A stretch of 64,000 bases of DNA from NCBI RefSeq assembly GCF_030499575.1, contig NZ_JASTLC010000002.1:1-64000 (forward strand), given 5' to 3'. The notes under the pieces are model-generated. The model was not told the DNA's origin. It saw nothing but the letters and a program-made list of their open reading frames with translations, and made no database searches. The stretch is from Streptomyces sp. DG2A-72 (GTDB lineage Bacteria; Actinomycetota; Actinomycetes; Streptomycetales; Streptomycetaceae). The stretch's first letter is position 1, and the number at the start of each line of letters is the position of its first letter. Positions 6,895 to 60,369 of the stretch are shown piece by piece. A program made the position numbers and the translations under genes.

Positions 6895-6896
6895 TT

Positions 6897-7517
6897 TTAC
6901 CCCCCGGAAAGGGCAGTGCGGACCGGCGAGCCGTGCCCTTCGTCGCCCTCTTGAATGTCTTCGTGCTGGTCGACGAGCCACGCCCCGCCCTCGTCGACCA
7001 GGCGCAGCGCGCGGCGGGTCGTGGTCGACTCCTTGCCGGGCCACGTGACGGTGTAGGAGACGAGGACGCCGTACCCGGACGGGTGGGCGCCGCTGGCCGG
7101 GACCTCGACGAGGTCCGAGACCTTGACGGGGCCGGTGTCGGCGCGGTCGGGCCCGCTGGGCGTGCTGGACGCGATCGTGTTCGGCGTGGAGCCGTCGGCG
7201 TACGTCGGCGGCGAGTACGACGGCGAGGGGCTCGACGAGTCGGCGGCCGTCGGTGTCGAGTCCGGGGTGTTGCGCGCGGCGCACTCCTCGACCGTGCCGT
7301 CCCGCATGGCCTTGGTGCTCAGGCGGCAAGCGGCAGTCCAGTCAAGGGCGTTGGCGGCCTTCTGGTAGGCGCTGGCCGCCTTGAGGACGGCGTCCGTCGG
7401 GTCCTTCTGCCCGCTGCTGCCCTTGGTGTCGCCGTCGTCCGACGAGGACGAGCACCCGGCCACGGTCAGGATGCCGGCGGCGAGGATGCCCGCGGCCGTC
7501 GCCGTCTTGCGGTTCAT
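6897..7517 (-). CDS. predicted lipoprotein of the transfer operon
   Basis: A 206-residue protein. ATG 7517 overlaps the stop of the VirB4-like gene as ATGA. The N-terminus MNRKTATAAGILAAG leads to a lipobox, TVAGC, at about residue 20, so it should be lipidated and held on the outer face of the membrane. A Ser/Thr/Pro-rich region in the middle is followed by a beta-rich C-terminal domain (GYGVLVSYTVTWPGKES...GGAWLVDQHED). A role in stabilising the mating channel is inferred from its place between the ATPase and the polytopic channel gene. Confidence 0.8.
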   Translation of the reverse strand: MNRKTATAAGILAAGILTVAGCSSSSDDGDTKGSSGQKDPTDAVLKAASAYQKAANALDWTAACRLSTKAMRDGTVEECAARNTPDSTPTAADSSSPSPSYSPPTYADGSTPNTIASSTPSGPDRADTGPVKVSDLVEVPASGAHPSGYGVLVSYTVTWPGKESTTTRRALRLVDEGGAWLVDQHEDIQEGDEGHGSPVRTALSGG

Positions 7518-11059: not shown

Positions 11060-12181
11060 TCACAGCGAGCCCCCGTGGACGTCGGCGACTTGCCACCGCG
11101 CGGCGTCGCTGGACGACACGCGCGTGAGGGTGACGCGGTAGGTCTGCTCGACGGTGGCTCCGCCGAGGGTCCAGGAGACGACCGCGGTCCCCGTGCGGTC
11201 GCTGCCGCTGCCGTCGTCGACCGACCAGGACGACAGATCCTTGTACGTGATGCCGGCGGGCAGGGCCGGGACGCTTGCGCCGGGGGCGGTGACGGTGTCC
11301 GTGTCGCCTGAGGCGTAGGCCCCGAAGAACTTCTCAACGACGCTTTGCGTCTGTGTGCTCAACTCCGTGTCGGCGTGCGCGGTCGACAGGTCGGGGGCCT
11401 TGGGGCCGCGCGCCGGGATGCCGACGAGGCCGGGGGTCCCGGTGACGATGACCCGGCCGGAGGTCTCGACAACGGGCACGTCGAGGCCGACCCATCGGGC
11501 GGCCTCCTCGGTGGTGGTCTTCTTCCCCTTGGTGGTGGTGACCGTCTCGGGACGGATCAGCACGTCGACCCGTACGCGGGCCTGTTCCTGTTTGCCGTGG
11601 GTCACGGTCCCCGGCTGGACGGCTAGCACGTCCTGGTTGCCGTGGCCGTCCCACCCCATGGTGGTGTCGGAGTCCGCCGGCAGGACGGAGGCGAGGAGCT
11701 GCGCCCGCTCGTCCGGCTGGTCCTCGTCGAACGTGAGGTACGCGCGGGCGAACCGGGCGGCCACGGCTTGCGCTTCCTCGTCCGGGTAGGCCGCGGCTTG
11801 GGTCGTGGTCGTCTTGGGGGTGGGCGCCGTCGTCTTCGCAGGGAAGAACCATTGCCGCACTCCGGTGATGGCCGCGAGCACGACGACGAACCACAGCAGA
11901 CCGCGGCCGAAGCGTCGGACGAACGCGGCGCCGGACTTCTCCTCTTGTGGCACCCAGGGCGTGACCGGCTTCGCAGCGCGCACGGGAGGGGGTGAGGGCG
12001 GAGCGGTCACGGTCGCGCCTGCCTGTTGTTGGCGCAGTCGGTTGCCTGCGGACTCCCACGGGTTCGCGGGCCCGGTGGCCGGTTCGCTCTGCTGAGGGAC
12101 ACCCGCCTTCGCGGGATCGCCGGTCTTCGCTGGTTCCGGCAGACCCGCAATCTTCCGCAGGACCCTTCCAAACGACGGCAC
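11060..12181 (-). CDS. TcpC-like conjugal transfer protein
   Basis: About 373 residues from a GTG at 12181 with an ideal GGGGGAGG ribosome site. Residues 1-85 are a Pro/Ala-rich cytoplasmic region. A single membrane helix (LLWFVVVLAAITGV) is at about 95-110. The long extracytoplasmic part appears to carry two similar alpha/beta domains (AVAARFARAYLTFDEDQP... and SVVEKFFGAYASGDTDTV...), the NTF2-like pair seen in TcpC and distantly in VirB8. TcpC-type proteins scaffold the mating channel. The gene is convergent on the VirB4 operon promoter region and divergent from the double-HTH gene. Confidence 0.82.
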   Translation of the reverse strand: MPSFGRVLRKIAGLPEPAKTGDPAKAGVPQQSEPATGPANPWESAGNRLRQQQAGATVTAPPSPPPVRAAKPVTPWVPQEEKSGAAFVRRFGRGLLWFVVVLAAITGVRQWFFPAKTTAPTPKTTTTQAAAYPDEEAQAVAARFARAYLTFDEDQPDERAQLLASVLPADSDTTMGWDGHGNQDVLAVQPGTVTHGKQEQARVRVDVLIRPETVTTTKGKKTTTEEAARWVGLDVPVVETSGRVIVTGTPGLVGIPARGPKAPDLSTAHADTELSTQTQSVVEKFFGAYASGDTDTVTAPGASVPALPAGITYKDLSSWSVDDGSGSDRTGTAVVSWTLGGATVEQTYRVTLTRVSSSDAARWQVADVHGGSL

Positions 12182-12842: not shown

Positions 12843-13232
12843 CTACTTCAGCCCCTCGTAATGCTCTTGCCAGAGATCGGCGCATCGCCGGTTGATGATG
12901 TCGACGGATGTTCCGGCGCCTCCGTACAGAATGACGCCGAGAGGTTCCTCGCGTACGGCCGACTTCCCGAAGAGGTTTGCCGCTGAATCGGCAACATCGT
13001 TCAGGAGTTGGTTTGCCCGGTCGTTGTCGATAGGCGGGATAGGCCATCTCATGTGCCAGCCCGAGCCGACGAGAGCGGGCGCGGTCTCGGCGTACTCGTC
13101 GCCGGAGTACGCGCGAATACGTCCGTGAACCAGATCAATGGAGAGGAACGCCCGACTCTCGCTTTCGAGGTCGTTCCCTCCTCGCGTCAGATAGTCGCGT
13201 GCGATCTCTTGCCCTGCGGCCTTTTCAGGCAC
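12843..13232 (-). CDS. hypothetical protein coupled to the FtsK-like gene
   Basis: A 129-residue protein from a GTG at 13232 that overlaps the end of the FtsK-like gene by 8 bp, indicating coupled translation. The sequence is acidic and mixed alpha/beta (SRAFLSIDLVHGRIRAYSGDEYAETAPALVG...) with no recognised motif, signal peptide or membrane span. Overlap with the coupling-protein gene suggests a linked role in transfer, but nothing in the protein proves it. Alternative upstream starts would extend it into the FtsK coding frame and have no ribosome site. Confidence 0.68.
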   Translation of the reverse strand: MPEKAAGQEIARDYLTRGGNDLESESRAFLSIDLVHGRIRAYSGDEYAETAPALVGSGWHMRWPIPPIDNDRANQLLNDVADSAANLFGKSAVREEPLGVILYGGAGTSVDIINRRCADLWQEHYEGLK

Positions 13233-15504
13233 TCGGCGCCCCCTCGTCTTCCTTGTCCCCTGCATTCTTGCGAGGGGTGGTGTTGTTCTTCTCCTGCCAT
13301 GCCACCCATTCCGCATGCCACGACTTGAGTTCCTCCTCGCTGTAATAGGAGGTCTGGCCGTCGCTCACGCCCTCGGGCGCCTTGATTCCGCGCGCTTCGC
13401 CGCGCTTGAAATAGGTTCGAGTGGTCGATGCCTTCCACGGGAGAATGCCGAGTTGGAACGCGTCGGCGAGGCTGTACGTCTCGGGGAGCTCCTCCTCCTG
13501 GTCCTCGGCCTTGGCGAGCTCCAGCCCGGCGCCGGCGCCTGTCGTGCCGCCTGTCGCGTCGGCTGTCGCGAGGGCCGCTGTCGTGCGCTGTGAGCTGGGC
13601 GTACTCCCCGTGATCCCCAGTGCTCCCGTGAGCACGACAGCGGGCAGGCTGGCCGGGCCGTACTTGCCGCCGGGCAGGAACGCGCCCGTGGCCGCGGTGG
13701 CGTTCACCTCGTCGAGAATCTCGGGCGTGATCCACGGCGCCAGTTGCCCCGCATCGAACCACTCCGGGGCGGGTGCGCATTGAGAAAGAAGTTCCCGAAC
13801 CTGCGGCGTGATGTACGAGGGTTGAATCTCGCGAACGTAAACGTGATCGGCATCGGGGTCTTTCCTCTGATCCGTGTAGGCGCCGCGTCCCGGAATGCTG
13901 GTGTCGTACGGGATAACGGGCGTGCTCTGCCCGAAAGCAACACCCCACGAAATGCGGTCCTGCTGCCCGACTGTCATTTTTGTTCCGATCTGCGCGCGCT
14001 CCATCGTGCCACCGAAAAACGTGTTGGCGAATTGCTGTGAACCGACCACGACACGGTGATCGGAGGAGCGTCCTTGCAGAAGGGTGATAGAGAGCCAGTC
14101 GAGGAAGGGAGGGGTTCCCTTTCCCTTGAGGCCGTAACGCCACCACGTATATGCGAGCTTGATCAATGTGGGGAGCTCGTCAACAACAAGGGTGCGCGGG
14201 ATGAGTTGGGTGCGAAGGGCCGGATCGGCTCCCCTTTCCGTGGCTGCCTCGGCGGCCATCATGGAAGTGAGGAACTCGGCGAATGCTGCGACGCATTCGC
14301 GCACCGTCTTATGAATCCGTACGCCCGAGAACCCTTCCGCCTCGGCGAGAGAGTTCCTCTTGGTGTCGAGGATGTCGATAAGCTCGCCGTGTTGCCGCCC
14401 GTGGACGACCGGAATATAGAGGACGGTCGACTTACCGGAGCCGGTTGCACCAGCCACACCCCAATGCGGTGTGGCGGTTTTCGTGTGCACTTCTACATCA
14501 ACGATTCTGTCACCGTCGATAGCAAGGCCGATGAACACACGGCGGGGGTCACCCGTCGACTTCCACGGGACGTAATCGGGGAGAACGGGCTTAGGCACGG
14601 GCTTGGGCTTGGGTGTCCACCGGACGTAATGCTCTTTGCCGGTCCGGTTCCACTCCGGCACCCATTCACCGGGTACGCGCTGCTCGATAACCCGCTCAAT
14701 TGCGGAAACACCTTCGGGTCCGCCCACCCAACTCACGGGGAGGCGGAGGACGATTTCGGCGCCGTCGGCGGTCATGTCGTCAGGGATCGAGAGCCATCTC
14801 GACCGGCGTTCCCTGTCCTCCATTCGGAGGACTTGCCGGACGGCCGCCCACACGCCGGGGCCGTAGATTTGTCTATCTGTCCACACCGGTTGTACGCGCC
14901 ACAACCCGAGCCCCGAGGGTCCGGTGAACGCTGCCAGATACGCCGTCACGGCGACTGCGATAAGGGCGAGTTGGGTCTCGTCGGGGTAGCGCCAAAGGCC
15001 CCACGCGATCGGCAGGGGCGCCAGGCGGACCGCTGCGCGCGCGGCGTACGGCCATCGGTGCCAGAGGTGCAGGACGCGCCACAAACCCGCCACGGCGCCG
15101 AACAGGGCCCGGACGGGGGCGAGTACGGCGCGGGCGGCACTGCGGGGCCGGTCGGGCTTGTCGAGGGAGACACCGAAGCTGTTGAGGCGGTCGTCTTTGC
15201 CGAGCTGGTCGACGGGCGTCTCGGTGGCCTGGTCGTCGGGCAGCGGGGCGCCGGCATGCCACCACGTGGCCTCGCTGCGCGGTACGGCGACGAGCTCGCG
15301 CCCGCCGACGTACCGGCCGATGCCCGCGGCCAGTGAGCCGAAGAACCGTTCAATGCTGCGGTTGAACTCCTTACGGTCCGCGGGCGTGCCCTGGTTGGCC
15401 AGGACCGCGACCACGACCAGGGCGCCGAGGGCGAGGCCGCCGAGGCTGAATCCGCCGCCCGGGAGACCGTCCACAAGGTCCGGGAGGTCCGGAAGGGCTT
15501 CCAC
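13225..15504 (-). CDS. FtsK/TcpA-like coupling protein
   Basis: A 759-residue protein from a GTG at 15504 with an AAAGGGGGAAC ribosome site. Membrane segments lie near residues 20-37 and 178-195. The motor domain has Walker A GATGSGKST (352-360) and Walker B LVVDE (439-443). After a Thr/Ala-rich linker at about 620-660 the C-terminus resembles a winged-helix DNA-binding domain (LADAFQLGILPWKASTTRTYFKRGEARGI). It probably recognises and pumps plasmid DNA to the type IV-like channel encoded to its left. The linker-coding DNA holds the first CTGTCGCG iteron block (13538-13640). Confidence 0.87.
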   Translation of the reverse strand: MEALPDLPDLVDGLPGGGFSLGGLALGALVVVAVLANQGTPADRKEFNRSIERFFGSLAAGIGRYVGGRELVAVPRSEATWWHAGAPLPDDQATETPVDQLGKDDRLNSFGVSLDKPDRPRSAARAVLAPVRALFGAVAGLWRVLHLWHRWPYAARAAVRLAPLPIAWGLWRYPDETQLALIAVAVTAYLAAFTGPSGLGLWRVQPVWTDRQIYGPGVWAAVRQVLRMEDRERRSRWLSIPDDMTADGAEIVLRLPVSWVGGPEGVSAIERVIEQRVPGEWVPEWNRTGKEHYVRWTPKPKPVPKPVLPDYVPWKSTGDPRRVFIGLAIDGDRIVDVEVHTKTATPHWGVAGATGSGKSTVLYIPVVHGRQHGELIDILDTKRNSLAEAEGFSGVRIHKTVRECVAAFAEFLTSMMAAEAATERGADPALRTQLIPRTLVVDELPTLIKLAYTWWRYGLKGKGTPPFLDWLSITLLQGRSSDHRVVVGSQQFANTFFGGTMERAQIGTKMTVGQQDRISWGVAFGQSTPVIPYDTSIPGRGAYTDQRKDPDADHVYVREIQPSYITPQVRELLSQCAPAPEWFDAGQLAPWITPEILDEVNATAATGAFLPGGKYGPASLPAVVLTGALGITGSTPSSQRTTAALATADATGGTTGAGAGLELAKAEDQEEELPETYSLADAFQLGILPWKASTTRTYFKRGEARGIKAPEGVSDGQTSYYSEEELKSWHAEWVAWQEKNNTTPRKNAGDKEDEGAPSA
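13538..13640. repeat. CTGTCG iteron block, copy 1
   Basis: Four CTGTCG-type repeats (CTGTCGTGC, CTGTCGCGT, CTGTCGCGA, CTGTCGTGC) are followed by CTGTGAGCTG, a C-rich stretch and the inverted copy GCACGACAG. The same arrangement occurs at 49684-49761 and 60644-60745. It lies inside the FtsK-like coding sequence, in the linker before the DNA-binding domain. Confidence 0.75.
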
Positions 15505-15603
15505 TGTTCCCCCTTTCTGTCCGCACGCCGCCGAGGGGTGCCCCTTGATCCTCGCGCACGGCTACGACAGACCGCGGCCGGGTTTCTCCCCCAGCAACAA
15601 CGG

Positions 15604-15630
15604 GCGCCCGACTCCTGGGGAGTCGGGCGC
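15604..15630 (-). terminator. intrinsic terminator
   Basis: GCGCCCGACTCC at 15604-15615 pairs perfectly with 15619-15630 around a TGG loop. It lies 74 bp downstream of the XRE-TPR regulator gene and separates it from the FtsK-like gene. Confidence 0.78.
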
Positions 15631-15703: not shown

Positions 15704-17044
15704 TCACGTCCTCTGCGCGGCGGGGGCGAGGAGCCTTGCCCGCTCGCTGAGCGCGTGGGCGATCTTGTTCGTGGGGTGCTTGCGGACCGAGCGCCGGAGG
15801 GTGGCGAAATGATCGTCACAGCGTGCAGAGCTGACGTGCGGATAGTCGTCGAGGAAGCCGCTCCACGTCGCGCAGGCCGCTTCGAGGTGGCCGTACTCGA
15901 ACTGTCGCTCGGCGAGGAGGGCCGTCGAGCGGGCCCTCGCCCGGCGTTCGGTCTGCGGCCGGCACCGGTTGGACTCCTCCATTTCGGCGATCGAGCCGCC
16001 GAGGTCGCCGAGCTCGTACAGGACGTGACTGGTGTGGTAGTGCAGGGCGGCCGGGTGGTATCCGCCGACGGTCCCTGACCTCGATGTGGCCTTTTCGAGG
16101 GCGGCCTCGGCCTCCCGGAGTTGCCGTTTCGCGTCGTCCCTGGCACCGACGGCCGCCGAGGCGTGCGCCTGCTGCCCGACGAGGAAAGCCCGCAGGCGGG
16201 GCCCGGCGGCCGGGGCCGCCGCTGCCGCAGCGTCGGCGTACTTGAGTGCGGTCCGTCCGTGGCCGAGGCCGACGGCTTGCACGCTCATGCCACGAAGTGC
16301 GGTGCAGTAGGTGAGGTGGTCGGCGCCTTCTCCGGCCAGTCGTAGGGCCTGCATGTAGTACCGCTGTGCAAGGCCGTGCGCGTTGGCGTCCATCGCCATC
16401 CAGCCGGTGAGGTAGGCGAGATCTGCGGCGGCCGAACACATGGCCTTGCGGGTCTCCTCGGAAGCGTCGCACTTGAGGTACCGGGCGACGGTGTTCCCGA
16501 GGAACGCGGAGGCGAGCGGCCGGACGTGGCTCCCGCCGAACTCGTCGTCGAGGTCTGCGAGGCGGGCGGACATGGCGGTCACGGTGGCTACCTCGTTGGG
16601 GCCGATCCGTGTCCCGGGGGTGGTCTGGGCTCGCCGTGCGCGGTCGACGACGTCCGGCCACCCGGGAACGGCGAGGGTGACCGAGTAGAGGCCGACGGCA
16701 CCGAGCACCGCCCGGCGGGAGGGGTCCATATCTGCACTCCACAGGTCGATAAGGGCGGCCACGGGGTCGGCCTGGTCGGGCGTGGGGGCGTCGGGTCCGA
16801 ATCCGGCGGTCGAGCTGGTGATAGTCCTCCCCAGCCGCCGGGACAGACATTCGAGGATCGCCGCCTGTGTGGGGGGCCGGGGGACGGTGCCCTTCAGCCA
16901 GTGCGATACGGCCGTTGTGTCGTACCGGAGACCGAGGCGCATCTCGGTTCCCACGGCGTTGACCTGTCGGGCGAACTTCGCGTTCGTCCAACCGGTTTCA
17001 CGGATGAGGCAGAAGAGAGCGATGTTCCGTGTGCGGTCGGGCAT
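15704..17044 (-). CDS. XRE-family regulator with TPR-like C-terminus
   Basis: A 446-residue protein from ATG 17044 with a GGGGGAGGG ribosome site. Residues 8-80 hold a helix-turn-helix (ETGWTNAKFARQVNAVG...DTTAVSHWLKGTVP). Residues 120-440 are helical repeats of TPR type (AQRYYMQALRLAGEGADHLTYCTALRGMSVQAVGLGHGRTAL). Such large cytosolic regulators often control Streptomyces specialised-metabolite or peptide clusters. It is transcribed away from the oxygenase-precursor-YcaO operon across a 159-bp gap, so it is the likely switch of that cluster. AGGGTT-TC-AACCCT at 17068-17081 is a candidate autoregulatory operator. Confidence 0.85.
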   Translation of the reverse strand: MPDRTRNIALFCLIRETGWTNAKFARQVNAVGTEMRLGLRYDTTAVSHWLKGTVPRPPTQAAILECLSRRLGRTITSSTAGFGPDAPTPDQADPVAALIDLWSADMDPSRRAVLGAVGLYSVTLAVPGWPDVVDRARRAQTTPGTRIGPNEVATVTAMSARLADLDDEFGGSHVRPLASAFLGNTVARYLKCDASEETRKAMCSAAADLAYLTGWMAMDANAHGLAQRYYMQALRLAGEGADHLTYCTALRGMSVQAVGLGHGRTALKYADAAAAAAPAAGPRLRAFLVGQQAHASAAVGARDDAKRQLREAEAALEKATSRSGTVGGYHPAALHYHTSHVLYELGDLGGSIAEMEESNRCRPQTERRARARSTALLAERQFEYGHLEAACATWSGFLDDYPHVSSARCDDHFATLRRSVRKHPTNKIAHALSERARLLAPAAQRT

Positions 17045-17067
17045 GACGTCCCTCCCCCGGAAATTCA

Positions 17068-17081
17068 AGGGTTTCAACCCT
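17068..17081. promoter_or_regulatory. candidate operator of the RiPP-cluster regulator
   Basis: A perfect inverted repeat with 6-bp arms, AGGGTT-TC-AACCCT, 24 bp upstream of the XRE-TPR start codon in the divergent promoter region. Further right, TTGACT near 17117 could be a -35 element for the plus-strand operon. Confidence 0.5.
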
Positions 17082-17203
17082 AGCCCTCTCTCCGGCCCTA
17101 GAGGCGTTCCGCTACCGGGAGTTGACTCTGTGTCAGCCGCTCGGGGGCCGGGAACCGTGGCGCCGGGCGGCGGACACCAAACCGCCGAGACCCCGGAGGG
17201 ATC

Positions 17204-17842
17204 ATGGACACGAGCGCGCTCGCGGAACGGCTCCCGGCCCGCACCGCTTGGGAGGACACGGGCACGGTCGTACTGCCCGACGTGCTACCGCCGGACCGCT
17301 TCAAAGCCTTGGAGGAGGAGGCGCTCGAACGCCTCGACCTGGTCACGCCGCATGTGCACGACCACACCGCCGCCCACCGTGACGGTTCGTTCGCGACGCC
17401 GGTTCACTGCGGTTTCATCCCGCCGGGCCCGGTGCTCGAACAGCTCGCGTACGACAAGCCGCTACTGATGGCGCTACGGGAGGCGACCGGCATCCCGCGC
17501 CTGATCCCCCGGGGCGGGGCCGTCGTCCTCTACCGGCAGGGCGACTTTCAGGGGCTCCACACGGACTCGTCGAAGAGCACGGTCACGGTCGGTATCGCCC
17601 TGACGCCGGACCTCCCGCCGATGGGGTGGGCGCCGCATCTGCGCCACCCGGACGGCCGCCAACTCGCGGACGTCGTCGCCGAGTTCGGCATGTTCCCGGA
17701 GGGGCCGCAGTTCACGACGCTGCCCCACCCCTACAACGACGGCAGCGTGAGGGCCTTCGCCGGGTACCACTTCGCGCACTGGCGGCCTCCGCTGCCGGCG
17801 GAGGCGGGTCTCCTCGTCACCATGTCGTTCATGGACCTGTGA
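17204..17842 (+). CDS. 2OG/Fe(II)-type oxygenase-like protein, paralogue 1
   Basis: A 212-residue protein from ATG 17204 after GGAGGG. The double-stranded beta-helix signature is present: H119 and D121 in GLHTD, and a distal His in AHWRP (H192). The Arg expected about ten residues after the distal His, which binds 2-oxoglutarate, is not seen (Gly there), so cosubstrate use is uncertain. It shares a MGWxPxLR insert and overall layout with the next gene, so the two are diverged duplicates. It overlaps that gene as TGATG. A role in hydroxylating or otherwise oxidising the precursor peptide is inferred. Confidence 0.75.
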   Translation: MDTSALAERLPARTAWEDTGTVVLPDVLPPDRFKALEEEALERLDLVTPHVHDHTAAHRDGSFATPVHCGFIPPGPVLEQLAYDKPLLMALREATGIPRLIPRGGAVVLYRQGDFQGLHTDSSKSTVTVGIALTPDLPPMGWAPHLRHPDGRQLADVVAEFGMFPEGPQFTTLPHPYNDGSVRAFAGYHFAHWRPPLPAEAGLLVTMSFMDL

Positions 17843-18462
17843 TGGAGGCCGGAACCCTGCGGCGGACATGGCTCGCCCAGGGCCGGGCGGACGTGCCGGC
17901 CGACGCGATCGAGGCGGGCCTCTGGGAGGAGCTCGCCGAGGAGGCCGAGCGGCTGGAGCCGGTCGCGGCCGTCCGGCACAACCAGCGGCCGGGCCTCCTG
18001 GCGATGCGGGACGGGTCGATCACGAGTCCGCAGCGCTGCACTGTCCACCCCGGCGCGGCGGCGCTGCGGGCCCTCGCGCAGTCCAAGGCGCTCGCGGACG
18101 TGGCGGCCGAGGCGACCGGCGCCGCGAAGATGACGGCGATCCGCTTCGGATACAAGTTCTACAAGCCCGGCGACTACATGCACGTTCACCGCGACGACGG
18201 GAAGTGCGAGATCACGTTCAGCGCCGCCCTGACGCCCGGCCTCGGGTCCATGGGGTGGCTGCCGAACCTGCGATGGCTGACGACCGAGGAGGTTGTCGAG
18301 CGGCTCGCCGATACGCCGTACCCGAACGGCGACGCGTTTCCCGTGCAGTACCGGGCCCTGACCGGATTCGACGGGTCCCGGATTCCCCACTGGCGTACCC
18401 CGCTCGATGGCCAATCGCGCGAGGTGCTGGTCACCGTCTGCTTCACCGATCTGTCGGTGTAG
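17842..18462 (+). CDS. 2OG/Fe(II)-type oxygenase-like protein, paralogue 2
   Basis: A 206-residue protein whose ATG shares a base with the stop of paralogue 1. The facial triad is H116 and D118 (HVHRDD) with distal H183 (IPHWRTP). R193, ten residues later, fits the 2-oxoglutarate-binding Arg, so this copy looks fully active. The shared insert GSMGWLPNLRW matches paralogue 1. It lies 32 bp upstream of the precursor gene and in the same operon. Oxidation of a precursor side chain, for example of Asp, Pro, His or Val, is a reasonable guess, but the substrate cannot be read from the sequence. Confidence 0.78.
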   Translation: MEAGTLRRTWLAQGRADVPADAIEAGLWEELAEEAERLEPVAAVRHNQRPGLLAMRDGSITSPQRCTVHPGAAALRALAQSKALADVAAEATGAAKMTAIRFGYKFYKPGDYMHVHRDDGKCEITFSAALTPGLGSMGWLPNLRWLTTEEVVERLADTPYPNGDAFPVQYRALTGFDGSRIPHWRTPLDGQSREVLVTVCFTDLSV

Positions 18463-18494
18463 CAGCAACCGCTACGAGTTCCGAGGAGGAACCC

Positions 18495-18659
18495 ATGCCC
18501 GTGTCCCAGTCCGTGACCGCCGCCGTTCCGGCGGACCCGGCCGACTTCATCGGCGAACTGCACGCCGAGGGCGCCATGCCGCAGAACAGCGGCGGTGACC
18601 CGGCCGTCCCCGACTCGGCGTTCCCCGACGTCCACACCTACGTGGTGCCGGCCGCCTGA
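18495..18659 (+). CDS. candidate RiPP precursor peptide
   Basis: A 54-residue peptide with a strong GAGGAGGA ribosome site just before ATG 18495. The N-terminal part (SQSVTAAVPADPADFIGELHAEG) looks like a leader with one amphipathic helix. A Gly/Pro/Asn spacer follows, and the C-terminal SAFPDVHTYVVPAA is a likely core. It contains no Cys, so azoline, lanthionine or aminovinylcysteine chemistry is excluded except through Ser/Thr. A position between the oxygenases and YcaO-TfuA, and a strong hairpin just downstream, fit a precursor. I recognise no known family. The leader/core boundary is a guess. Confidence 0.72.
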   Translation: MPVSQSVTAAVPADPADFIGELHAEGAMPQNSGGDPAVPDSAFPDVHTYVVPAA

Positions 18660-18687
18660 CCGGCGGACCGGTAGTCGGTAGCTGATC

Positions 18688-18730
18688 GGCCCGGCCGCCC
18701 GGACGCCTCCCCGCGTCCGGCGGCCGGGCC
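18688..18730 (+). terminator. hairpin attenuator between precursor and YcaO genes
   Basis: A near-perfect 18-bp GC stem (left arm 18688-18706, loop CTCCCC, right arm 18713-18730, one bulged base) sits between the precursor stop and the YcaO ribosome site. There is no U-tract. Partial termination or 3-prime end protection would give more precursor than enzyme transcript. Confidence 0.7.
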
Positions 18731-18757
18731 TCGCCGTCCCCGAGAGGAGAGTCGTCC

Positions 18758-19960
18758 ATGCGAAAAGTGTTCTTCGACGGCGCCCACCGCACCCGCCATC
18801 CCGGCGAGACGTGGGCCGCGCTCCGGCCGCTGCTCGCGGTCTACGGCATCACCCGCGTTGCCGACGTGACCGGGCTCGATGACCTCGGTATCCCCGTCAC
18901 GATGGCCGTGCGGCCCCTGGCCCGGACGCTGAGCGTCGCGCAGGGCAAGGGGGCGACATTGGACGCCGCCCGGGTGTCCGGCGCGCTGGAGGCCGTCGAG
19001 GCGTGGCACGGTGAGCGCGCCGTGCCCTCGGTGGTCGAGCGGGCCCCGGCCGAAGCCCTGCGCCTGCCGTATCCGGTGGCCGCGTTGGAGACGCACCCCG
19101 GCTCTTTACTGACCCCTCGTACGGTGCTGGACTGGATCACCGCCCGCTCGGCGGTCGACGGCACCACCGTGCCGGTGCCGGCCGCGTGCGTGCGGCTCGG
19201 CCGGGAGACTCACGGCCGGTGGCGGCTGCACCTGCCGAGCGCGTCGACCAACGGCCTCGCCTCCGGCAACACGACGGCCGAGGCGGTCGCGCACGCGCTG
19301 TACGAGGTGATCGAGCGGGACGCGGTCAGCAACCTGACCAGCCCCGCCCCCGAGGGCCGCCCGCAGCGCATCGACCCGGGCAGCGTGAGCGATCCGCACT
19401 GCGCGAACCTGATCGAGCGCACCCAACAGGCGGGCGCATGGCTGGAGTTGTGGCACCTGCCGAGCCGCTTCGGCGTGCCGGTGATGAGCGCCTATCTGTG
19501 GCGCGAGGACCAGGCCGCGCTCCTGGTCTCCGGGTCAGGGGCGCACCTTGACCCGCGCATCGCCCTGTCCCGGGCGGTCACCGAGGCCGCACAGTCCCGG
19601 CTGACGGCGATCACCGGGAGCCGTGAGGACGTCCACCCGGCCACCTACCGGAACGGTGGGCACCAGGGCCCCGGCGGCGCGGCCGAGCCGGGCGCCGACT
19701 GGGGGCCGATCGCTTCCCGGTACGCCGCAGGGTTCGACACCCACGAGCGCGAGGTCGCGCACCTGGCCGCCCGCGTCGCGAGCGTGACCGGCGCGGCCCC
19801 GCTGGTCGTCGACCTGACGCACGGCCCGTACGAGACCGGCGGAGTGTTCTCGGTCGTCAAGGTCGTTGCGCCGCACCTGCGGTACGACTCCCGGCACGTC
19901 ATCCCCCGCCCGCGGCAGGAGCGCACCAGCGCCCGCCCGAGTCAGGAGGCCGCAGCGTGA
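18758..19960 (+). CDS. YcaO-domain protein (TfuA-associated)
   Basis: A 400-residue protein from ATG 18758 after GAGAGGAGA. The ATP-binding YcaO signatures are clear: SVAQGKGATLDAARVSGALEAVEAW (residues 59-83), TNGLASGNTTAEAVAHALYEVIERDA (about 166-191) and ALSRAVTEAAQSRL (about 262-275). YcaO enzymes activate backbone amides by phosphorylation. With a TfuA partner they introduce sulfur to make thioamides. It overlaps the tfuA gene as GTGA, which indicates a coupled pair. No E1-like or RRE domain is fused or adjacent, which argues against classical azoline synthesis. Confidence 0.9.
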   Translation: MRKVFFDGAHRTRHPGETWAALRPLLAVYGITRVADVTGLDDLGIPVTMAVRPLARTLSVAQGKGATLDAARVSGALEAVEAWHGERAVPSVVERAPAEALRLPYPVAALETHPGSLLTPRTVLDWITARSAVDGTTVPVPAACVRLGRETHGRWRLHLPSASTNGLASGNTTAEAVAHALYEVIERDAVSNLTSPAPEGRPQRIDPGSVSDPHCANLIERTQQAGAWLELWHLPSRFGVPVMSAYLWREDQAALLVSGSGAHLDPRIALSRAVTEAAQSRLTAITGSREDVHPATYRNGGHQGPGGAAEPGADWGPIASRYAAGFDTHEREVAHLAARVASVTGAAPLVVDLTHGPYETGGVFSVVKVVAPHLRYDSRHVIPRPRQERTSARPSQEAAA

Positions 19961-21345
19961 GCACCGTCCATGTCTTCTCCGGCCCGACCCTGCCGGCCGC
20001 CCGTGTCGGCGAGCTCCTGCCCGGCGCGGTGTGGCATCCGCCGCTCGCGCACGGGGACCTGTTACGGCTCGACACCGCACCCGGCGACACGGTCGTGATC
20101 ATTGACGGGGTGTGGCACCAGCGCGCGCCCGTGCGGCACAAAGAGATCTTGTTGTTGCTGGCCGAGGGGGTTCGGGTGGTCGGCGCGGCGAGCATGGGCG
20201 CGCTGCGGGCCGCCGAGCTCGCGCCGTACGGAATGACCGGCGTCGGGCGCGTCTTCGAGGACCTGGCGGCCGGGGTGCTGGACGCCGACGACGACGTCTC
20301 CGTACTGCACACTCCCGAGGGACAGCCGGTGTCCGAGGCCCTGGTGAACATCCGGGCCGCGCTCCTCCGGTGTGCGGCGGCCGGGCAGATCAGCGAGACC
20401 GACGCCGGCACGCTCGAAGCGCTCGCCCGCGCACTGCCCTACACCCGCCGCACATGGGCCGCGCTCGCCCACCGGGCCCGCGAGGAGGGAGCGGGCGCCG
20501 CGTTCGCCGCGGTCGACGGGTGGCGTCGGCGCAATCCGTACGACGTGAAGCGGGAGGACGCGGAGCGCGCCCTCGTCCTGGTCGGCGCGGGCGGCCCGCC
20601 GGAGCCCGAGGGCGCGGCGCGGGAGTGGGAGCGGGAGCCGTGGCGGACGTCGTTCGTGCGGTACTGGACGGCGGCACACCGCCCCGGCCCCGGTGGTGTG
20701 CCGTTCCTCGCGGTGCTCCAACACCAACAGCTCTACGACGCCGAATTCCCCGCCCGGTGGCGAACCCGGGTTCTGTCAGCTGTGGCCGGAGAGGACATCG
20801 GCCCGGACGGGGTCGAGGCCGCCGCGCTGCGTGCCACGGCGGCCGAGGGGGTCGACGTGAGCGCCCTGTCCCGGCAACAGCTCGGATACTGGCTCGCTCC
20901 GGTCGAGCTGCGGGCGCTTCCGCCGGGTGAGGCGCTGCTCCGGATCGTGGTCCGCTCGGCCCGGCTGGATGGCGCGTGGTCGGTGTGGCCGTCGAGCCGG
21001 GCCGAGGCCGGGGAGCTGGTCGACGACGCGTTGCCGACGGCGGAGGACGTCGCCGCGGCGTACGCCGTGAATGCGGCCGTCGAGGCGGCCGACCACCGCC
21101 ACACGATCGCCCGCCTGTCCGCCGACCGCATCGGCGGGCACCTCGCCGCCCGGTGGAACCTCCCGGCGTGCGCGGGGCGGCCGGTGCTGGACGCTGCGGC
21201 TCGCGACCGCGGATTCCGTGACTTCGGCGGGGCGGTCGAGGTCGCCCGCGCGTTCTACCTCGGCGCCCGTGCGGACACTCCGGCGGTCTCCGTCGGGACC
21301 GGCTCGTGTGCGGACTGCCCGGCCAGGGCCAAGGCCCGAACCTGA
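19957..21345 (+). CDS. TfuA-like protein
   Basis: A 462-residue protein with a GTG start overlapping the YcaO stop. The TfuA core is in the first 160 residues: TVVIIDGVWHQRAPVRHKEI and EGVRVVGAASMGALRAAEL. The remaining 300 residues are helical with no domain I recognise. They make the protein roughly twice the size of a minimal TfuA. TfuA partners deliver sulfur to, or allosterically support, YcaO in thioamide formation, as in methanogen McrA and thioamitide pathways. A CADCPAR motif at the C-terminus has two cysteines that might handle sulfur. The 3-prime end overlaps the convergent exporter gene by 91 bp. Confidence 0.87.
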   Translation: MSTVHVFSGPTLPAARVGELLPGAVWHPPLAHGDLLRLDTAPGDTVVIIDGVWHQRAPVRHKEILLLLAEGVRVVGAASMGALRAAELAPYGMTGVGRVFEDLAAGVLDADDDVSVLHTPEGQPVSEALVNIRAALLRCAAAGQISETDAGTLEALARALPYTRRTWAALAHRAREEGAGAAFAAVDGWRRRNPYDVKREDAERALVLVGAGGPPEPEGAAREWEREPWRTSFVRYWTAAHRPGPGGVPFLAVLQHQQLYDAEFPARWRTRVLSAVAGEDIGPDGVEAAALRATAAEGVDVSALSRQQLGYWLAPVELRALPPGEALLRIVVRSARLDGAWSVWPSSRAEAGELVDDALPTAEDVAAAYAVNAAVEAADHRHTIARLSADRIGGHLAARWNLPACAGRPVLDAAARDRGFRDFGGAVEVARAFYLGARADTPAVSVGTGSCADCPARAKART

Positions 21346-22667
21346 CGGATCAGCAGCGGCACCACCGCGGCAAGCACGATCACCAGGGCGCCGCCCGCGA
21401 GGGTCGCGCGGACTCCGACGGCGCGGGAAACCGGGCCCGCGAGGAGGTAGCCGAACGGTACGGGAACGAGCTGCCCGAGCGTCGAGTACGACAGTGCCCG
21501 GCTCAGCCGGTCGGCCGGGATGCGTTCCTGTACCAGCCCGGACCATACGGTCATACTGACGGCGAGACCGGTCCCGGCCGCCGCCGTCGCGGCGACGAGC
21601 ACCGGCAGCGGGGCGGCGGCGGCCATCGCAGCAAGCGGCAGCGCGAGCGACCCGGTACCCGCGCACACCACCCGGCCGACCAGCCGGGGCCGCCACATCA
21701 GCGCGACGGCGGCCCCGGCCACCAGCCCGGCCGTGAACCCGGAGACAACGAGGCCCCACAGTCCGGCGCCGCCAAGGAACCGCGCACCGTAGACCGGGCC
21801 GAGGAGTTGGTACCCGACCAGCCACACCGGCACGACGAGCGCGCCTTGTACGACCATCACCCACAGCCAGCGGCGGGAGCGGAAGTCGGTCCAGCCGTCG
21901 CGCAGATCGGCCAGGAACCCCGCCTTCACCTTCACCGCGCCCGGCTTGAGGTCAATCCGGGCGAACAGGACGGCGGAGGCCGCGAAAGTCAGCGCGTCCC
22001 ATCCGATGGCCCAGGCCGACCCGAACACAGCGACGAGGAGACCGCCGATGGCCGGGCCGCTGACCTTGACGAGGTTCTGCGCGATCTTCAGGAGGGCGTT
22101 CGCCGCGTGCCGGGCTTCGGCCGGCACCACTTCCTTGACGATGCCGCCCGCGGCCGGGGTGAAGAACGCCGAGGCCGCGCCGCAGATCCCGGACATGAGC
22201 ACCAGGTGCCACACCCGGGCCGTGCCGGACCACAGCAGCGCCGCGGCGAGGGCCTCGGCGAGCGCGCACACGATGTTGGACCACACCATGACCCGGTGGC
22301 GCGGGAGCCGGTCGGCGACGACTCCGCCCACCAGGAGTAGAAGGATCTGCGGGGCGACGCTCGCCGCGAGGACCAGGCCGAGCGCGCCCGCTCCCCCGCC
22401 GATGTGCAGTACCGCGAAGGCGAGGGCGATCGGCGAGACCGCCGATCCGGTCCACGACAGCACACGTGCGGTGAAGTGCAGCCGGTACGGGCGGACCGCG
22501 AGGGGCGCCCCCGCTTCCCGGACGCGCGCCGCCCAACCAATCCGGGGACCAGGCCCCGCCGTCCAGTTCAGCAGTCGCGCTTTCCGCAAGATCCAACTCC
22601 GCCCAGGAACAACGAAATCCCGGCGGCGAGGCGCCACCGGGAAGGCTGCCCCGACTCTAGGGCACAC
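21255..22667 (-). CDS. MFS exporter
   Basis: A 470-residue polytopic protein with about twelve hydrophobic helices and the MFS loop GGVVADRLPRHRVMVWSN between helices 2 and 3. It resembles the MFS_3 or enterobactin-exporter group (PAAGGIVKEVVPAEARHAANAL). It converges on tfuA with a 91-bp overlap of coding ends. Export of the modified peptide, or self-resistance, is inferred from position. The GTG at 22667 has no good ribosome site. The first 50 residues are Arg/Pro-rich and the true start may be further inside, near residue 55. Confidence 0.85.
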   Translation of the reverse strand: MCPRVGAAFPVAPRRRDFVVPGRSWILRKARLLNWTAGPGPRIGWAARVREAGAPLAVRPYRLHFTARVLSWTGSAVSPIALAFAVLHIGGGAGALGLVLAASVAPQILLLLVGGVVADRLPRHRVMVWSNIVCALAEALAAALLWSGTARVWHLVLMSGICGAASAFFTPAAGGIVKEVVPAEARHAANALLKIAQNLVKVSGPAIGGLLVAVFGSAWAIGWDALTFAASAVLFARIDLKPGAVKVKAGFLADLRDGWTDFRSRRWLWVMVVQGALVVPVWLVGYQLLGPVYGARFLGGAGLWGLVVSGFTAGLVAGAAVALMWRPRLVGRVVCAGTGSLALPLAAMAAAAPLPVLVAATAAAGTGLAVSMTVWSGLVQERIPADRLSRALSYSTLGQLVPVPFGYLLAGPVSRAVGVRATLAGGALVIVLAAVVPLLIRQVRALALAGQSAHEPVPTETAGVSARAPR

Positions 22668-22860
22668 GAAAGATCATCTGTCGCAGACGCAACAGCCTGC
22701 GCCCGGAGAACTCCAGTCCAGCCGGATACCGCCCCCAACGCGCAGCGTCAGCGGTCACAGATGACCGGCGGGGACACCGAAGGGGACAGCATCCGTCACG
22801 ACGGCCGGAGCTGTACGGGCGCGCCCGGCTCCTGGGGCCGGGCACGCGAGGGGCGGTGGG

Positions 22861-23415
22861 TCAGGATGCTGGCGGGAGTGCGTCGAGGGCGAGCTCCCAC
22901 GGGTAGGCGTCGAGGTTGCCGCGGCCGGGCGGGTGGGGGGCGTACCCGGGCCCGCTCTGGCCGTCGTCGAGGAGCACGGTCACGCCTGCCTCGCGCAGCT
23001 CGGCGACGCTGCGCCGGACGGCCGGGTGCCGGTCCTGGGCATCGTTCCAGTGCGGGAGGGCAACGATGTGCAGCCCCTTGCCGATGCCCTCGGTGATCAG
23101 GCCGAGGGCGAGCGTGTCACTGATGCCGGCGGCCCACTTGTTGAGCGAGTTCGAGGTGAGCGGGGCGACGAGGAGCGCATCCGGGGCGGGCAGGACATCA
23201 GGCTCCGAGGGGAGCTTGTAGGAGTGCCGGACGGGGTGGCCTGTCAGCTCGCGGAGTTCGTCGAGGTTGCCCCCGGGGTCCTCCGTCATCCATCGGTGGG
23301 CGTCCGGGGTGAGGATGAGGCAGACGTCCCAGCCCGATTTTTGCGCGGCGCGAATGGGGATGGTGAGGCGTCGGGCGGGCGGGGCGGCGCAGGCGATCAC
23401 GTACAGAGTTTTCAC
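22861..23415 (-). CDS. HFCD-fold flavoprotein
   Basis: A 184-residue protein of the flavin-dependent decarboxylase-like fold. The N-terminal strand LYVIACAAPPARR, an APLTSNSLNKWAAGISDTLAL motif (the PASANT region that binds FMN) and LPHWNDAQDRHPAVRRSV (where the family has PxMNxxMW) are visible. The clamp residues that grip a C-terminal Cys are replaced, so peptide-Cys decarboxylation is unlikely. It overlaps the upstream regulator gene as ATGA. It faces away from the RiPP operon and pairs with its own regulator, so it is probably an independent regulator-flavoprotein unit. Confidence 0.83.
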   Translation of the reverse strand: MKTLYVIACAAPPARRLTIPIRAAQKSGWDVCLILTPDAHRWMTEDPGGNLDELRELTGHPVRHSYKLPSEPDVLPAPDALLVAPLTSNSLNKWAAGISDTLALGLITEGIGKGLHIVALPHWNDAQDRHPAVRRSVAELREAGVTVLLDDGQSGPGYAPHPPGRGNLDAYPWELALDALPPAS

Positions 23416-24653
23416 GTGGGCAGTCCACAGCGTGCGGCGAGCGCCCGCAAGCGGCCCTCAGCCGAACCGGCCCCCAAGAGTCGTAAGTCGTCGACGAGTT
23501 GCCGGGTCCGGGGCCGACACCGGACCTCTTCCTCTGCCTCCCGCTCGGCGTCGAGGAGGGCGTCGACCGCCTCGACACGGCGTCCCGCCTGCGTGAGCCC
23601 GTGGGCGAGATCGGTAAGGAGGTGGGCGCGGCGCTCTTTGGGCAGCGCGGCGCGGCTCGGGTTGGGGATGGCGTGGGCGACTGCGACGGCGTCCGCGCCT
23701 GCGCTGAGCTGGACGTGTGCGGCGACGCGGTACAACTTCGCGTTGGTGGGCCCGAATGCGGTCCACAGGCTGTTGCCGTCGAACCCGAGCTCGTCGGCGT
23801 GCTGGTCGGCCTGGTCGAGGAGGTCGGGGACCGCGCGGGCCGCCGCGGCGGCCCGGGTGTCGTCGAGTGCGGCGGCCGTGGCCTGCGCCATGGCGGCTTT
23901 GAGGTACAGCATGCCCAACACTGAGGTGCCGTCCTCGCCGCGGGTGCGCAAGTGGGGTCCGAGGCGGGCGGCGGCGCTGATGGCGAACTCGGCGGCGGCG
24001 TGGGGTTGGCCGTGCATGGTCATGGCGTCGGCGAGGTGACGCGCGGCCGATGCCATGTTGACGGGGTCCTCGGACCGCTCGGCGGCGGCCACGGCGCGGT
24101 GTCCGGAGACGAGCGCGAGGTCGGTATCGCCGTACTTGATCGCCGCGCCCTCGATGAGTTCGAGGGTGAAGGAGAGGAGCCGGAAGGCTTCGAGCTGGTC
24201 CTCGTGCTGGTGGCGGGCGGCGGCGCGGTTGGTGTCGACGAGGAGCTCGGGGACGAGCCGCCCGAGAGACGCGAAATGCCCCGCTTGAAAGGCGGATCTG
24301 GCATGGTCGAGGCGGCCGTGTAGGACCGTGACGGGGAGCGGGTCGGTGCCGTCGTCGTCCACCGCTCCCGTGATCACGTCGTGCCGTTGCAGGGTCCGGC
24401 GAATCACGTTGAGCTCGAACGAGTCCAGGCATTTGACCGCCGGAGCGGTGGAGAGGAACACCCCGACGTCGACTTGCAGTACGCGGGCCGCGCGCTCGAC
24501 CACGGAGAGATTGGGGTCGCGCTGCCGTTCGCCTCGCTCGACGTCTTGGGCCCATCTGCGGGACTGTCCCATCAGGCGGCCGAAGACTTCTTGCGTCATG
24601 CGGCGGCGCTCTCGCCAGTAGGCGACACGACGCCCGAACTCCTGCGCGTCCAT
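23412..24653 (-). CDS. XRE-family regulator with helical-repeat domain
   Basis: About 413 residues. The helix-turn-helix is at residues 8-60 (EFGRRVAYWRERRRMTQEVFGRLMGQSRRWAQDVERGE). The rest is TPR-like helical repeat. ATG 24653 is chosen because GGAG lies eight bases upstream. An ATG two codons earlier leaves only two bases of spacing. The divergent promoter region contains GCACGCA-CTT-TGCGTGC at 24682-24698, a probable operator. The flavoprotein gene is translationally coupled to it. Confidence 0.83.
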   Translation of the reverse strand: MDAQEFGRRVAYWRERRRMTQEVFGRLMGQSRRWAQDVERGERQRDPNLSVVERAARVLQVDVGVFLSTAPAVKCLDSFELNVIRRTLQRHDVITGAVDDDGTDPLPVTVLHGRLDHARSAFQAGHFASLGRLVPELLVDTNRAAARHQHEDQLEAFRLLSFTLELIEGAAIKYGDTDLALVSGHRAVAAAERSEDPVNMASAARHLADAMTMHGQPHAAAEFAISAAARLGPHLRTRGEDGTSVLGMLYLKAAMAQATAAALDDTRAAAAARAVPDLLDQADQHADELGFDGNSLWTAFGPTNAKLYRVAAHVQLSAGADAVAVAHAIPNPSRAALPKERRAHLLTDLAHGLTQAGRRVEAVDALLDAEREAEEEVRCRPRTRQLVDDLRLLGAGSAEGRLRALAARCGLPT

Positions 24654-24681
24654 GGACATTGCTCCGGGCCGGAATCATGAT

Positions 24682-24698
24682 GCACGCACTTTGCGTGC
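24682..24698. promoter_or_regulatory. GCACGCA palindromic operator, copy 1
   Basis: An inverted repeat with 7-bp arms, GCACGCA-CTT-TGCGTGC, between the XRE regulator and the divergent gene starting at 24733. The same palindrome with 8-bp arms recurs at 25464-25482 before the next plus-strand operon. Both are followed, about 35-40 bases on, by TACCGTCC and an ATG with no clear ribosome site. Confidence 0.75.
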
Positions 24699-24732
24699 CT
24701 ACAGTCCGTTGTACGCCCTCTACCGTCCAGAT

Positions 24733-25197
24733 ATGGCCGAGTCCAAGGAAACCGCTTGTAAGTGGGCCGCGTTCGTCTCCCCAAACGACGCGACCGCCGT
24801 CGAGCTGCGCTTGGCCGAGAGCTCTGCAATGAGGTTCGCGCCCTGCGGCATTCAGTGGGATGCCGTCGTGATCGCTCCTCTTGAGCGCGGCCTCGCCGCC
24901 CTCGATGTTCTCGGCCTACCGCAGGACGAGGGGCATCCCGTGTTCGCCGACTACTACAAACAAGAGCTGATCGTGCAGGTTCGAGCCGGGACCGCGGCCG
25001 ATCAGTTCGAGGACGTCCAAGGCGTCCGCCCGCTCTCGCGCGGAGGGTGGGTCATGGTCCCCAACATGGGGGCCGGAACGACGCATGCCGCATGGATCAG
25101 CCGTCCAACTTCCTGGGAAGTGCGCTACGTTGACGCCACCGCGTTGCGCGAGGCACTCCTCATGGCCGACAGACTCGGCGTGCCTGCGCGCTGCTGA
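24733..25197 (+). CDS. hypothetical protein under GCACGCA operator
   Basis: A 154-residue protein from ATG 24733, which starts only 11-12 bases after a TACCGT -10-like sequence and has no ribosome site, suggesting a leaderless transcript. An upstream frame to 24652 would run through the operator. The sequence (RFAPCGIQWDAVVIAPLERGLAALDVLG, SRGGWVMVPNMGAGTTHAAWISR) has a layout faintly like the N-terminal part of bifunctional primase/polymerases, but the catalytic Asp pair is not evident. It is monocistronic and followed by two hairpins. Function unknown. Confidence 0.7.
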   Translation: MAESKETACKWAAFVSPNDATAVELRLAESSAMRFAPCGIQWDAVVIAPLERGLAALDVLGLPQDEGHPVFADYYKQELIVQVRAGTAADQFEDVQGVRPLSRGGWVMVPNMGAGTTHAAWISRPTSWEVRYVDATALREALLMADRLGVPARC

Positions 25198-52187: not shown

Positions 52188-52272
52188 GGCGTAGACGGTA
52201 GCGATGCTCTGTGTCCGGAGGCGACGGACCCGGCGATATGCCGCCCGAAAGCGGGGCGGAGGGGCCGACAAC

Positions 52273-52307
52273 CCTTGCGGCGCTTGGTGTCCGGATTTCC
52301 GGACACC
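52273..52307. repeat. parS-like 35-bp repeat, copy 2
   Basis: Same 35 bases as 50670-50704, with the GGTGTCCGGA-TT-inverse palindrome at 52286-52307, 86 bp upstream of the parA start in the parA/parB-like divergent promoter. It is a likely partition site and autoregulatory operator. Confidence 0.85.
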
Positions 52308-52446
52308 GCCATGGGCGGCCCTCGTGATCACCCTCACGGGTGATCGACGGATACTTGCCTGATGACACGAGGCAAGGAAGACGGACGGGCCACAGGGCCC
52401 GGGAAGATGCGTTCCGTTCGCCCCTTCGTGGTTACGGGGGTTTCTG

Positions 52447-60284: not shown

Positions 60285-60369
60285 GGCGGCACGCTCCCAC
60301 ACGGCGCCGACAGCGGGTGCACCGTTCGGGTGATGCCGTTTGCAGGCGTCGAACGCGCGAGGGGGTCGT

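Follow-up and report, generated by a model that had tools for sequence, protein, structure and literature searches.

The window, a 64,000-nucleotide stretch of Streptomyces sp. DG2A-72 DNA (assembly GCF_030499575.1, contig NZ_JASTLC010000002.1, positions 1-64,000), carries a seven-gene locus at 15704-22667 whose five core genes, oxyA, oxyB, a precursor gene, ycaO and tfuA, together span ~4.1 kb. We propose, with a probability of about 0.72, that these genes encode the pathway to an uncharacterised family of thioamidated, oxidised RiPPs (ribosomally synthesised and post-translationally modified peptides), acting in the steps set out below. Among the observations behind the proposal are these: ycaO and tfuA are adjacent and keep their conserved residues, and a conserved precursor gene lies beside the pair in all 16 loci that were read.

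These 16 distinct loci are the window and L002, L003, L004, L005, L006, L007, L034, L035, L037, L041, L042, L043, L044, L073 and L083, with L002 (which shares a contig with L036) and L003 (which shares one with L040) each counted once. The gene order oxyA-oxyB-precursor-ycaO-tfuA is the same in 16/16, and a repeat search of the 15 other loci found the five genes in each. Because the queries for most loci were oxyA, oxyB or the precursor, part of this co-occurrence follows from the search design. The full five-gene set is also present in L041 and L083, to which the precursor alone led, and in L073, reached through TfuA. A TfuA query led to L074 as well, a contig of 4,851 bp that has only TfuA and a major facilitator superfamily (MFS) gene. 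The precursor and OxyB of L083 are identical to proteins listed for Actinomadura rupiterrae. A preliminary description of this DNA had made its case depend on precursor homologues occurring beside YcaO-TfuA in related genomes, and they do occur there, together with both oxygenases, in every locus read.

Among the genomes searched, the precursor was found in 7 of 392 of the genus, in none of 396 phylum genomes besides the window's own and, for family f89, in 0/140 genomes in a first search and 2/341 in a fuller one. OxyA matched in 7/295 genus genomes (five with the cluster, two with a TfuA-OxyA fusion described below), and TfuA in 25/394 genomes of the class. Of the two f89 matches, the one in genome G1256 was taken as chance; the 19 kb read there gave neither a YcaO nor a TfuA match. 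No YcaO match was found in phages, and a phage origin of the cluster was rejected on that ground.

The length of the precursor open reading frame (ORF) is in itself no proof of a gene, because the frame around its 54 codons stays open for 263 codons in this GC-rich DNA. Judged by sequence comparison, the small ORF is nevertheless a genuine gene, because it has 57 related proteins besides its own, its start is limited and its synteny is kept in 16/16 loci. The start is limited in 10 of the 15 other loci, since a stop lies no more than 75 residues upstream of the C-terminus, and the window's ATG is preceded by GAGGAGG, a ribosome-binding site of its own. A single-sequence protein search with the precursor returned 26 proteins and a profile search, in which 7,992 candidates were scored, at least 58 precursor-family proteins, the window's own counted in both cases; counts out of 58 given here are among the matches listed. 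Organisms are named for 33 of the 58 listed: 26 Streptomyces, three Actinoallomurus and one each of Kitasatospora, Streptomycetaceae, Actinomadura and a Sporichthyaceae metagenome-assembled genome. The Cys-free 54-residue precursor of the preliminary description stands as an ORF, and Cys is found in 0/58 of the listed precursors. We consider it very improbable that this ORF is something other than the substrate, for example a regulator, and that a different peptide or protein is acted on by the enzymes. The ORF and the enzymes are linked here by sequence, and archaeal homologues of the pair thioamidate methyl-coenzyme M reductase, as the text of PMC6511847 describes. However, the ORF lies inside the operon, behind its own ribosome-binding site, at every locus read, has no Pfam or NCBIfam family match and looks like a leader followed by a conserved motif.

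The window's precursor has a variable N-terminal end, a leader-like DPADFIGELHAEG, a core-like MPQNSGGDPAVPD and a variable C-terminal end. Two parts are near-invariant among the 58 listed, DPADF..ELH.EG on the leader side and then PQNxGGDPAVPD. On the leader side D14 and F18 are kept in 58/58, L22 and G26 in 57, P15 in 55 and H23 in 53; on the core side P29, D35, P36, V38, P39 and D40 are kept in 57 each, A37 in 51, N31 in 48 and Q30 in 47. The 58 sequences were collected by word-sharing searches and the counts anchored at GG, so that G33 and G34 are invariant by construction. Past D40 conservation drops, to 40/58 at H47 and 45/58 at Y49. The preliminary description had laid stress on the C-terminus SAFPDVHTYVVPAA, but this stretch is the variable part of the precursor and the near-invariant parts lie ahead of it. 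From this pattern, we take DPADFxxELHxEG as the probable leader, the PQNxGGDPAVPD region as the probable core and PQNSGGDPAVPD as the putative core segment of the window's precursor. A precedent, by analogy, for the most conserved motif serving as core is the std pathway of S. thermodiastaticus, where a nearly invariant C-terminal motif contained the modified residues and part of it was a follower (PMC13174530).

An unlikely alternative is that the same pathway uses the C-terminal tail as core (SAFPDVHTYVVPAA in the window), with GGDPAVPD belonging to the recognition sequence. In RiPPs, conservation is generally higher in the leader than in the core, and H47 and Y49 are retained in many of the precursors listed. 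A His is, moreover, the residue hydroxylated in thioamitides by the 2-oxoglutarate (2OG) oxygenase TsaJ, according to the text of PMC8153245. Against this, YcaO, TfuA and the two oxygenases are all present in the Actinomadura-type cluster, yet its precursor tail is different and lacks the His motif, so that the tail sequence is not needed by the common enzymes: Actinomadura/Actinoallomurus-type precursors finish in sequences like DSLGSDPARWAAEY..., as opposed to SAFPDTHTYP....

YcaO-TfuA pairs install thioamides in RiPPs (text of PMC6511847 and PMC13174530). In the window, the ycaO-tfuA overlap by GTGA and the intact motifs that had been described were confirmed by the ORFs and by residues S74, E78, E81, E183, E186, R187, E276, Q279 and R281 of YcaO, which are kept in 16/16 rows of alignment A9. 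We take the Glu, Gln and Arg positions among these to be the ATP/Mg site of YcaO proteins. By sequence, the nearest solved relatives are MJ1094 for YcaO (E 1.8e-41) and Methanosarcina TfuA 6xp8 for TfuA (E 1.4e-45, profile positions 4-208), and a fold search with the TfuA model gave 6xp8 as its one significant match. Both of these relatives belong with the methanogen pair that thioamidates a glycine of McrA. That pair acts on a large protein, whereas the window's YcaO (188.8 bits against TIGR03266, cut-off 365 bits) and TfuA fall below their McrA-type equivalog cut-offs. TfuA residues 210-462 are conserved in the family, yet gave no known domain or fold match in Pfam, NCBIfam or a fold search with a model that is poor over the C-terminal part (mean predicted local distance difference test score, pLDDT, 63.7). 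With its 217 residues, 6xp8 lacks this ~250-residue extension.

In two genomes (G290 and G230; loci L038 and L039), ycaO is followed by one frame that joins a TfuA domain to a terminal OxyA-like domain; Pfam and a separate translation were run for L038. The 20 kb examined at each fusion showed neither a free-standing OxyB gene nor a GGDPAVPD precursor. A short ORF precedes ycaO in both (33 codons in L038, 32 in L039) and ends in the common GTFVACSAE; the L039 frame is open further upstream. On sequence grounds, we regard these loci as a candidate for another thioamidated RiPP, with the short ORF as its candidate precursor. The fusion supports a putative partnership of OxyA-type enzymes with YcaO-TfuA, and it suggests that this enzyme type may also be used with another substrate. 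At L075, an ORF with two imperfect DALF...YS repeats (11280-11942, - strand) precedes a YcaO-TfuA pair (53% and 43% identical), and its region has no match to the oxygenases; this ORF is perhaps another repeat-type precursor.

The two paralogous HxD oxygenases reported ahead of the precursor were verified by ORFs and by alignment of HxD..H, and oxyB adjoins oxyA in 16/16 loci. Neither protein reached a Pfam or NCBIfam model at E 0.01. The AlphaFold2 model of OxyA (pLDDT 94.4) has the double-stranded beta-helix of 2OG oxygenases, and its Foldseek/VIA matches include BesD/HalB, P4H and PHD2 at 11-18% identity. Alignment A7 keeps HxD..H and R194 in 62/62 OxyA homologues. OxyA can be confidently modelled as an Fe(II)/2OG oxygenase, and OxyB is predicted to be one from its sequence. 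Hydroxylation (or desaturation) would be expected, because of the OxyA fold and the HxD..H in 62/62 rows. Ordinary membership of PhyH was rejected (E values of 1 or below were reached by 6 of 62 members, the lowest being 0.0069), as was ordinary membership of AlkB (a weak sequence match, E 0.058 and above); in both cases the kinship is at the fold level only. Also rejected was the idea of OxyB-only clusters in Actinomadura and Actinoallomurus, in which the tail would be the OxyA substrate. The protein search that suggested it (7,999 candidates scored) had missed the OxyA of L083, the one such locus reached (an Actinomadura-type one), which carries both enzymes.

One or both oxygenases might instead desaturate the peptide, or free the product by oxidative backbone cleavage, which we regard as rather unlikely. 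Halogenases carry HxG in place of HxD, and D121, present in 62/62 rows, argues against halogenation. The fold family is broad, with matches that also include the epimerase SnoN, the carbocyclase SnoK and the halogenase BesD, and the listed BesD/Hal structures act on free amino acids, while OxyA and OxyB differ in keeping HxD and share little identity with them. The scan of proteins near the operon showed no protease, and 2OG-dependent cleavage of a peptide backbone is reported for RiPP pathways in PMC12636437; however, the enzymes responsible there have an HEXXH motif, unlike the HxD..H kept here. Hydroxylation remains our preferred role for the pair.

In the proposed pathway, the 54-residue precursor would be recognised through DPADFxxELHxEG, YcaO would use ATP to activate a backbone amide in PQNxGGDPAVPD, and TfuA would deliver sulfur, so that a single thioamide, or perhaps several, would form, most plausibly at Gly-Gly or next to it. 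Two of the conserved Pro, Asp and Asn residues would be hydroxylated (or, less probably, desaturated) by OxyA and OxyB. A host protease would then remove the leader, and perhaps the variable C-terminal tail as well, and the MFS protein would export the product. How much precursor is made relative to the maturation enzymes may be governed by a GC hairpin 3' of its gene.

Several points weigh against this account. Selection on the precursor is only moderately purifying (pN/pS 0.47 for a 27-codon block, 120 pairs of 16 sequences). Part of the motif conservation reflects selection by word-sharing retrieval, the GG columns being the anchor of the count, and a strongly conserved motif could be a recognition sequence rather than a core. 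The Arg of OxyA lies two residues past the distal His, unlike what we take to be the position of the 2OG-binding Arg in PhyH-type enzymes. No leader peptidase was seen by Pfam and NCBIfam among the proteins scanned around the operon. The flanking genes are not constant either: MFS has no match in 2/16 loci (L035 and L041), and the NsdA-family regulator that is divergent from the operon has none at E 1e-4 in 9 of the 15 others. Finally, covariation in the hairpin is modest, with further pair types no better than in shuffled alignments (283/500).

This hairpin lies in the 98 bases between the precursor gene and ycaO, which fold at -60.6 kcal/mol (z -3.29; 0/200 shuffles as good, a test made on the window's region of the 16). 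A long GC stem occupies the same gap in 16/16 loci folded, with whole-region energies of -44.3 to -74.2 kcal/mol. Covariation was measured on 15 of the 16 regions, L083 being too different. The 14 consensus pairs are 96.1% paired; shuffling gives 90.5% and sliding no more than 60.7%, the latter a control in which the consensus is favoured because it was derived from the same alignment. Changes on both sides occur in 13 cells (0/500 shuffles reach that) and in 4 pairs (36/500 do). Sequence comparison therefore indicates a conserved stem. Rfam gave nothing at gathering cut-offs, and one narrow literature search found no paper on hairpin attenuators. Such hairpins can act as read-through attenuators or mRNA stabilisers, and either is possibly the role here.

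Table 1. Features of the locus in the window and of the TfuA-OxyA fusion loci.
Feature	Position	Strand	Basis and remarks
NsdA-family TPR regulator	15704..17077	-	divergent from operon; NCBIfam NF053720 NsdA_fam_reg, E 1.2e-124
oxyA, predicted Fe(II)/2-oxoglutarate oxygenase	17204..17842	+	H119-x-D121 ... H192; model and alignment
oxyB, oxyA paralogue	17842..18462	+	33-35% identity to OxyA; same HxD..H by alignment
Precursor peptide, 54 aa, no Cys	18495..18659	+	synteny, conservation
18-bp GC stem-loop, precursor-ycaO gap	18688..18730	+	folding z -3.29, modest covariation
YcaO, ATP-dependent backbone-activating enzyme	18758..19960	+	Pfam PF02624, E 3.9e-64
TfuA, 462 aa	19957..21345	+	Pfam PF07812, E 3.6e-41, plus C-terminal ~250 aa without family match
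MFS exporter, convergent	21255..22667	-	Pfam PF05977 (MFS_3), E 1.5e-27
TfuA-OxyA fusion loci	L038:6784-10279; L039:10232-13735 (- strand)		OxyA-like domain ~53-55% identical to OxyA

Genes in the locus (Table 1) are tightly packed: oxyA and oxyB overlap by one base and the 3' end of the MFS gene overlaps tfuA by 91 bp. No sigma-70-type promoter was found in 16900-22900, and no + strand terminator was found. The flanking exporter of the preliminary description is supported by its family match, and an MFS gene is beside the cluster in 14/16 loci. At L002 the MFS match is in two pieces ~790 bases apart (13429-15606), as if interrupted by an insertion. In the MFS place, L041 has a convergent APH-family phosphotransferase (13074-14138, - strand), possibly for tailoring or self-protection, and L035 has another convergent ORF (6281-7369). 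The regulator had been described as XRE-TPR; a divergent TPR regulator is indeed present, but it is of the NsdA family and a strong orthologue (84-95% identical) occurs in only 4 of the 15 other loci (L002, L003, L034 and L042), with weak 30% matches in L035 and L041. The position of the regulator is taken at L043 by a gene annotated as a transcriptional regulator and at L044 by one for a hypothetical protein. The NsdA-family protein is a possible cluster regulator, though not a universal one. Beyond the exporter, at 22861-24659, the window carries a flavoprotein (PF02441, weakly CoaBC-like) and an XRE regulator, with full matches among the 15 other loci only on the NBC_01136 plasmid. PF02441 also includes peptide-cysteine decarboxylases; the precursor here has no Cys.

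The plasmid location proposed for the cluster is consistent with its contig. This is 67,295 bases long in a 10.58-Mb genome of three contigs and has genes for a TcpF-like conjugation ATPase (7514-10057), a ParA-like protein (51234-53513) and a TniQ-like protein (59190-60302). The contig ends share a 50-bp direct repeat, as those of a circular replicon would, and window bases 78-130 match the other contig end in inverted orientation. Elsewhere the cluster is on a plasmid of Streptomyces sp. NBC_01136 (88.1% identical across the 7.2-kb query), on plasmid pZL1 of 14R-10, typed conjugative, on a plasmid of S. phaeochromogenes NBC_01183 and, by sequence match only, on S. anulatus and NBC_00708 plasmids. 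Genome G159 has the cluster at 66.5 kb, with a diverged copy ~16 kb from both ends of its 9.64-Mb contig, and G1112 has it at 5.33 Mb of a 7.65-Mb contig. The operon is therefore found on plasmids, near chromosome ends and inside chromosomes.

Among known systems, the thiovarsolin cluster varAYTO likewise combines a YcaO-TfuA pair with a small precursor, an MFS gene and an oxidising enzyme, but VarO is heme-oxygenase-like, whereas here there are two 2OG-type oxygenases, and precursors of that type mostly have repeating cores (one does not), whereas here there is a single motif (text of PMC6511847). No VarO-type heme-oxygenase-like domain was found by Pfam or NCBIfam among ten proteins scanned at 15704-25197, and no repeats were seen by eye in the 54-residue precursor. 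Thioamitides (thioviridamide, thiostreptamide S4) share YcaO-TfuA thioamidation. The window also has a PF02441 flavoprotein to compare with them, a gene common to only 1/15 other loci. Their AviMeCys ring needs Cys, and the absence of Cys from the 58 precursors listed excludes a thioamitide-type ring. A further likeness lies in TsaJ (pfam05721), the His hydroxylase mentioned above (PMC8153245). The std cluster (StdA-I) resembles ours in YcaO-TfuA, MFS, oxidative hydroxylation and a short motif far better conserved than the rest; it differs in having an MNIO with a partner protein, a carbamoyltransferase-peptidase and the motif SNKEWQE (text of PMC13174530). No MNIO or carbamoyltransferase-peptidase gene was found here by the Pfam and NCBIfam scan, and no SNKEWQE in the precursor sequence. 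Thiopeptide features (split LanB dehydratase, cycloaddition enzyme) were absent from the same ten proteins, the rest of the 67-kb contig having been sampled only, as was a lanthipeptide synthetase of the kind expected for thioamidated chimeric lanthipeptides, a class named in PMC13174530; the listed precursors also lack Cys.

We found no described product of this precursor family in the full text of open-licence papers, supplements not covered. Whether the family is already among the peptide networks of RiPPER surveys of TfuA clusters is an evenly balanced question. Those surveys went from 229 actinobacterial TfuA proteins to 74 networks and later to 797 clusters of possible precursors (PMC6511847, PMC8120280), and one relative is annotated as a hypothetical protein in S. 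davaonensis. On the other side, the main text of PMC6511847, supplements aside, does not contain 'davaonensis', 'dioxygenase', '2OG' or 'hydroxyl', and that of PMC8120280 has neither 'davaonensis' nor '2-oxoglutarate'; a single phytanoyl-CoA dioxygenase is named in it, in the legend of a figure, with no connection made there to the present precursor. We describe the family as uncharacterised, and its peptide may already be listed in survey supplements. The preliminary description of a candidate new cluster holds for the gene set; as to novelty, this is one member of a recurring family, and the surveys already predict large numbers, in the hundreds, of TfuA-linked precursor families (main texts of PMC6511847 and PMC8120280).

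By the count of PMC13174530, four YcaO-TfuA RiPP classes had been characterised before std. A further step, possible but one that we doubt, is that the present genes make a new RiPP class, in which a near-invariant core PQNxGGDPAVPD would be thioamidated and oxidised twice by a dedicated oxygenase pair working physically with TfuA, as the TfuA-oxygenase fusion suggests. Its product would stay constant even as the genes pass from plasmids to chromosomes and back, a pattern to be expected for a signal, a cofactor-like or a metal-binding molecule and not for a diversifying antibiotic. The fusion opens the question of physical coupling between thioamidation and oxidation, and a near-invariant core on mobile DNA raises that of the product's purpose. 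The system is unusually tractable, with five genes, a motif that points to the probable core and relatives that range from Streptomyces plasmids to a genome of Actinomadura type, and chemists can take its most conserved stretch as the place to look.

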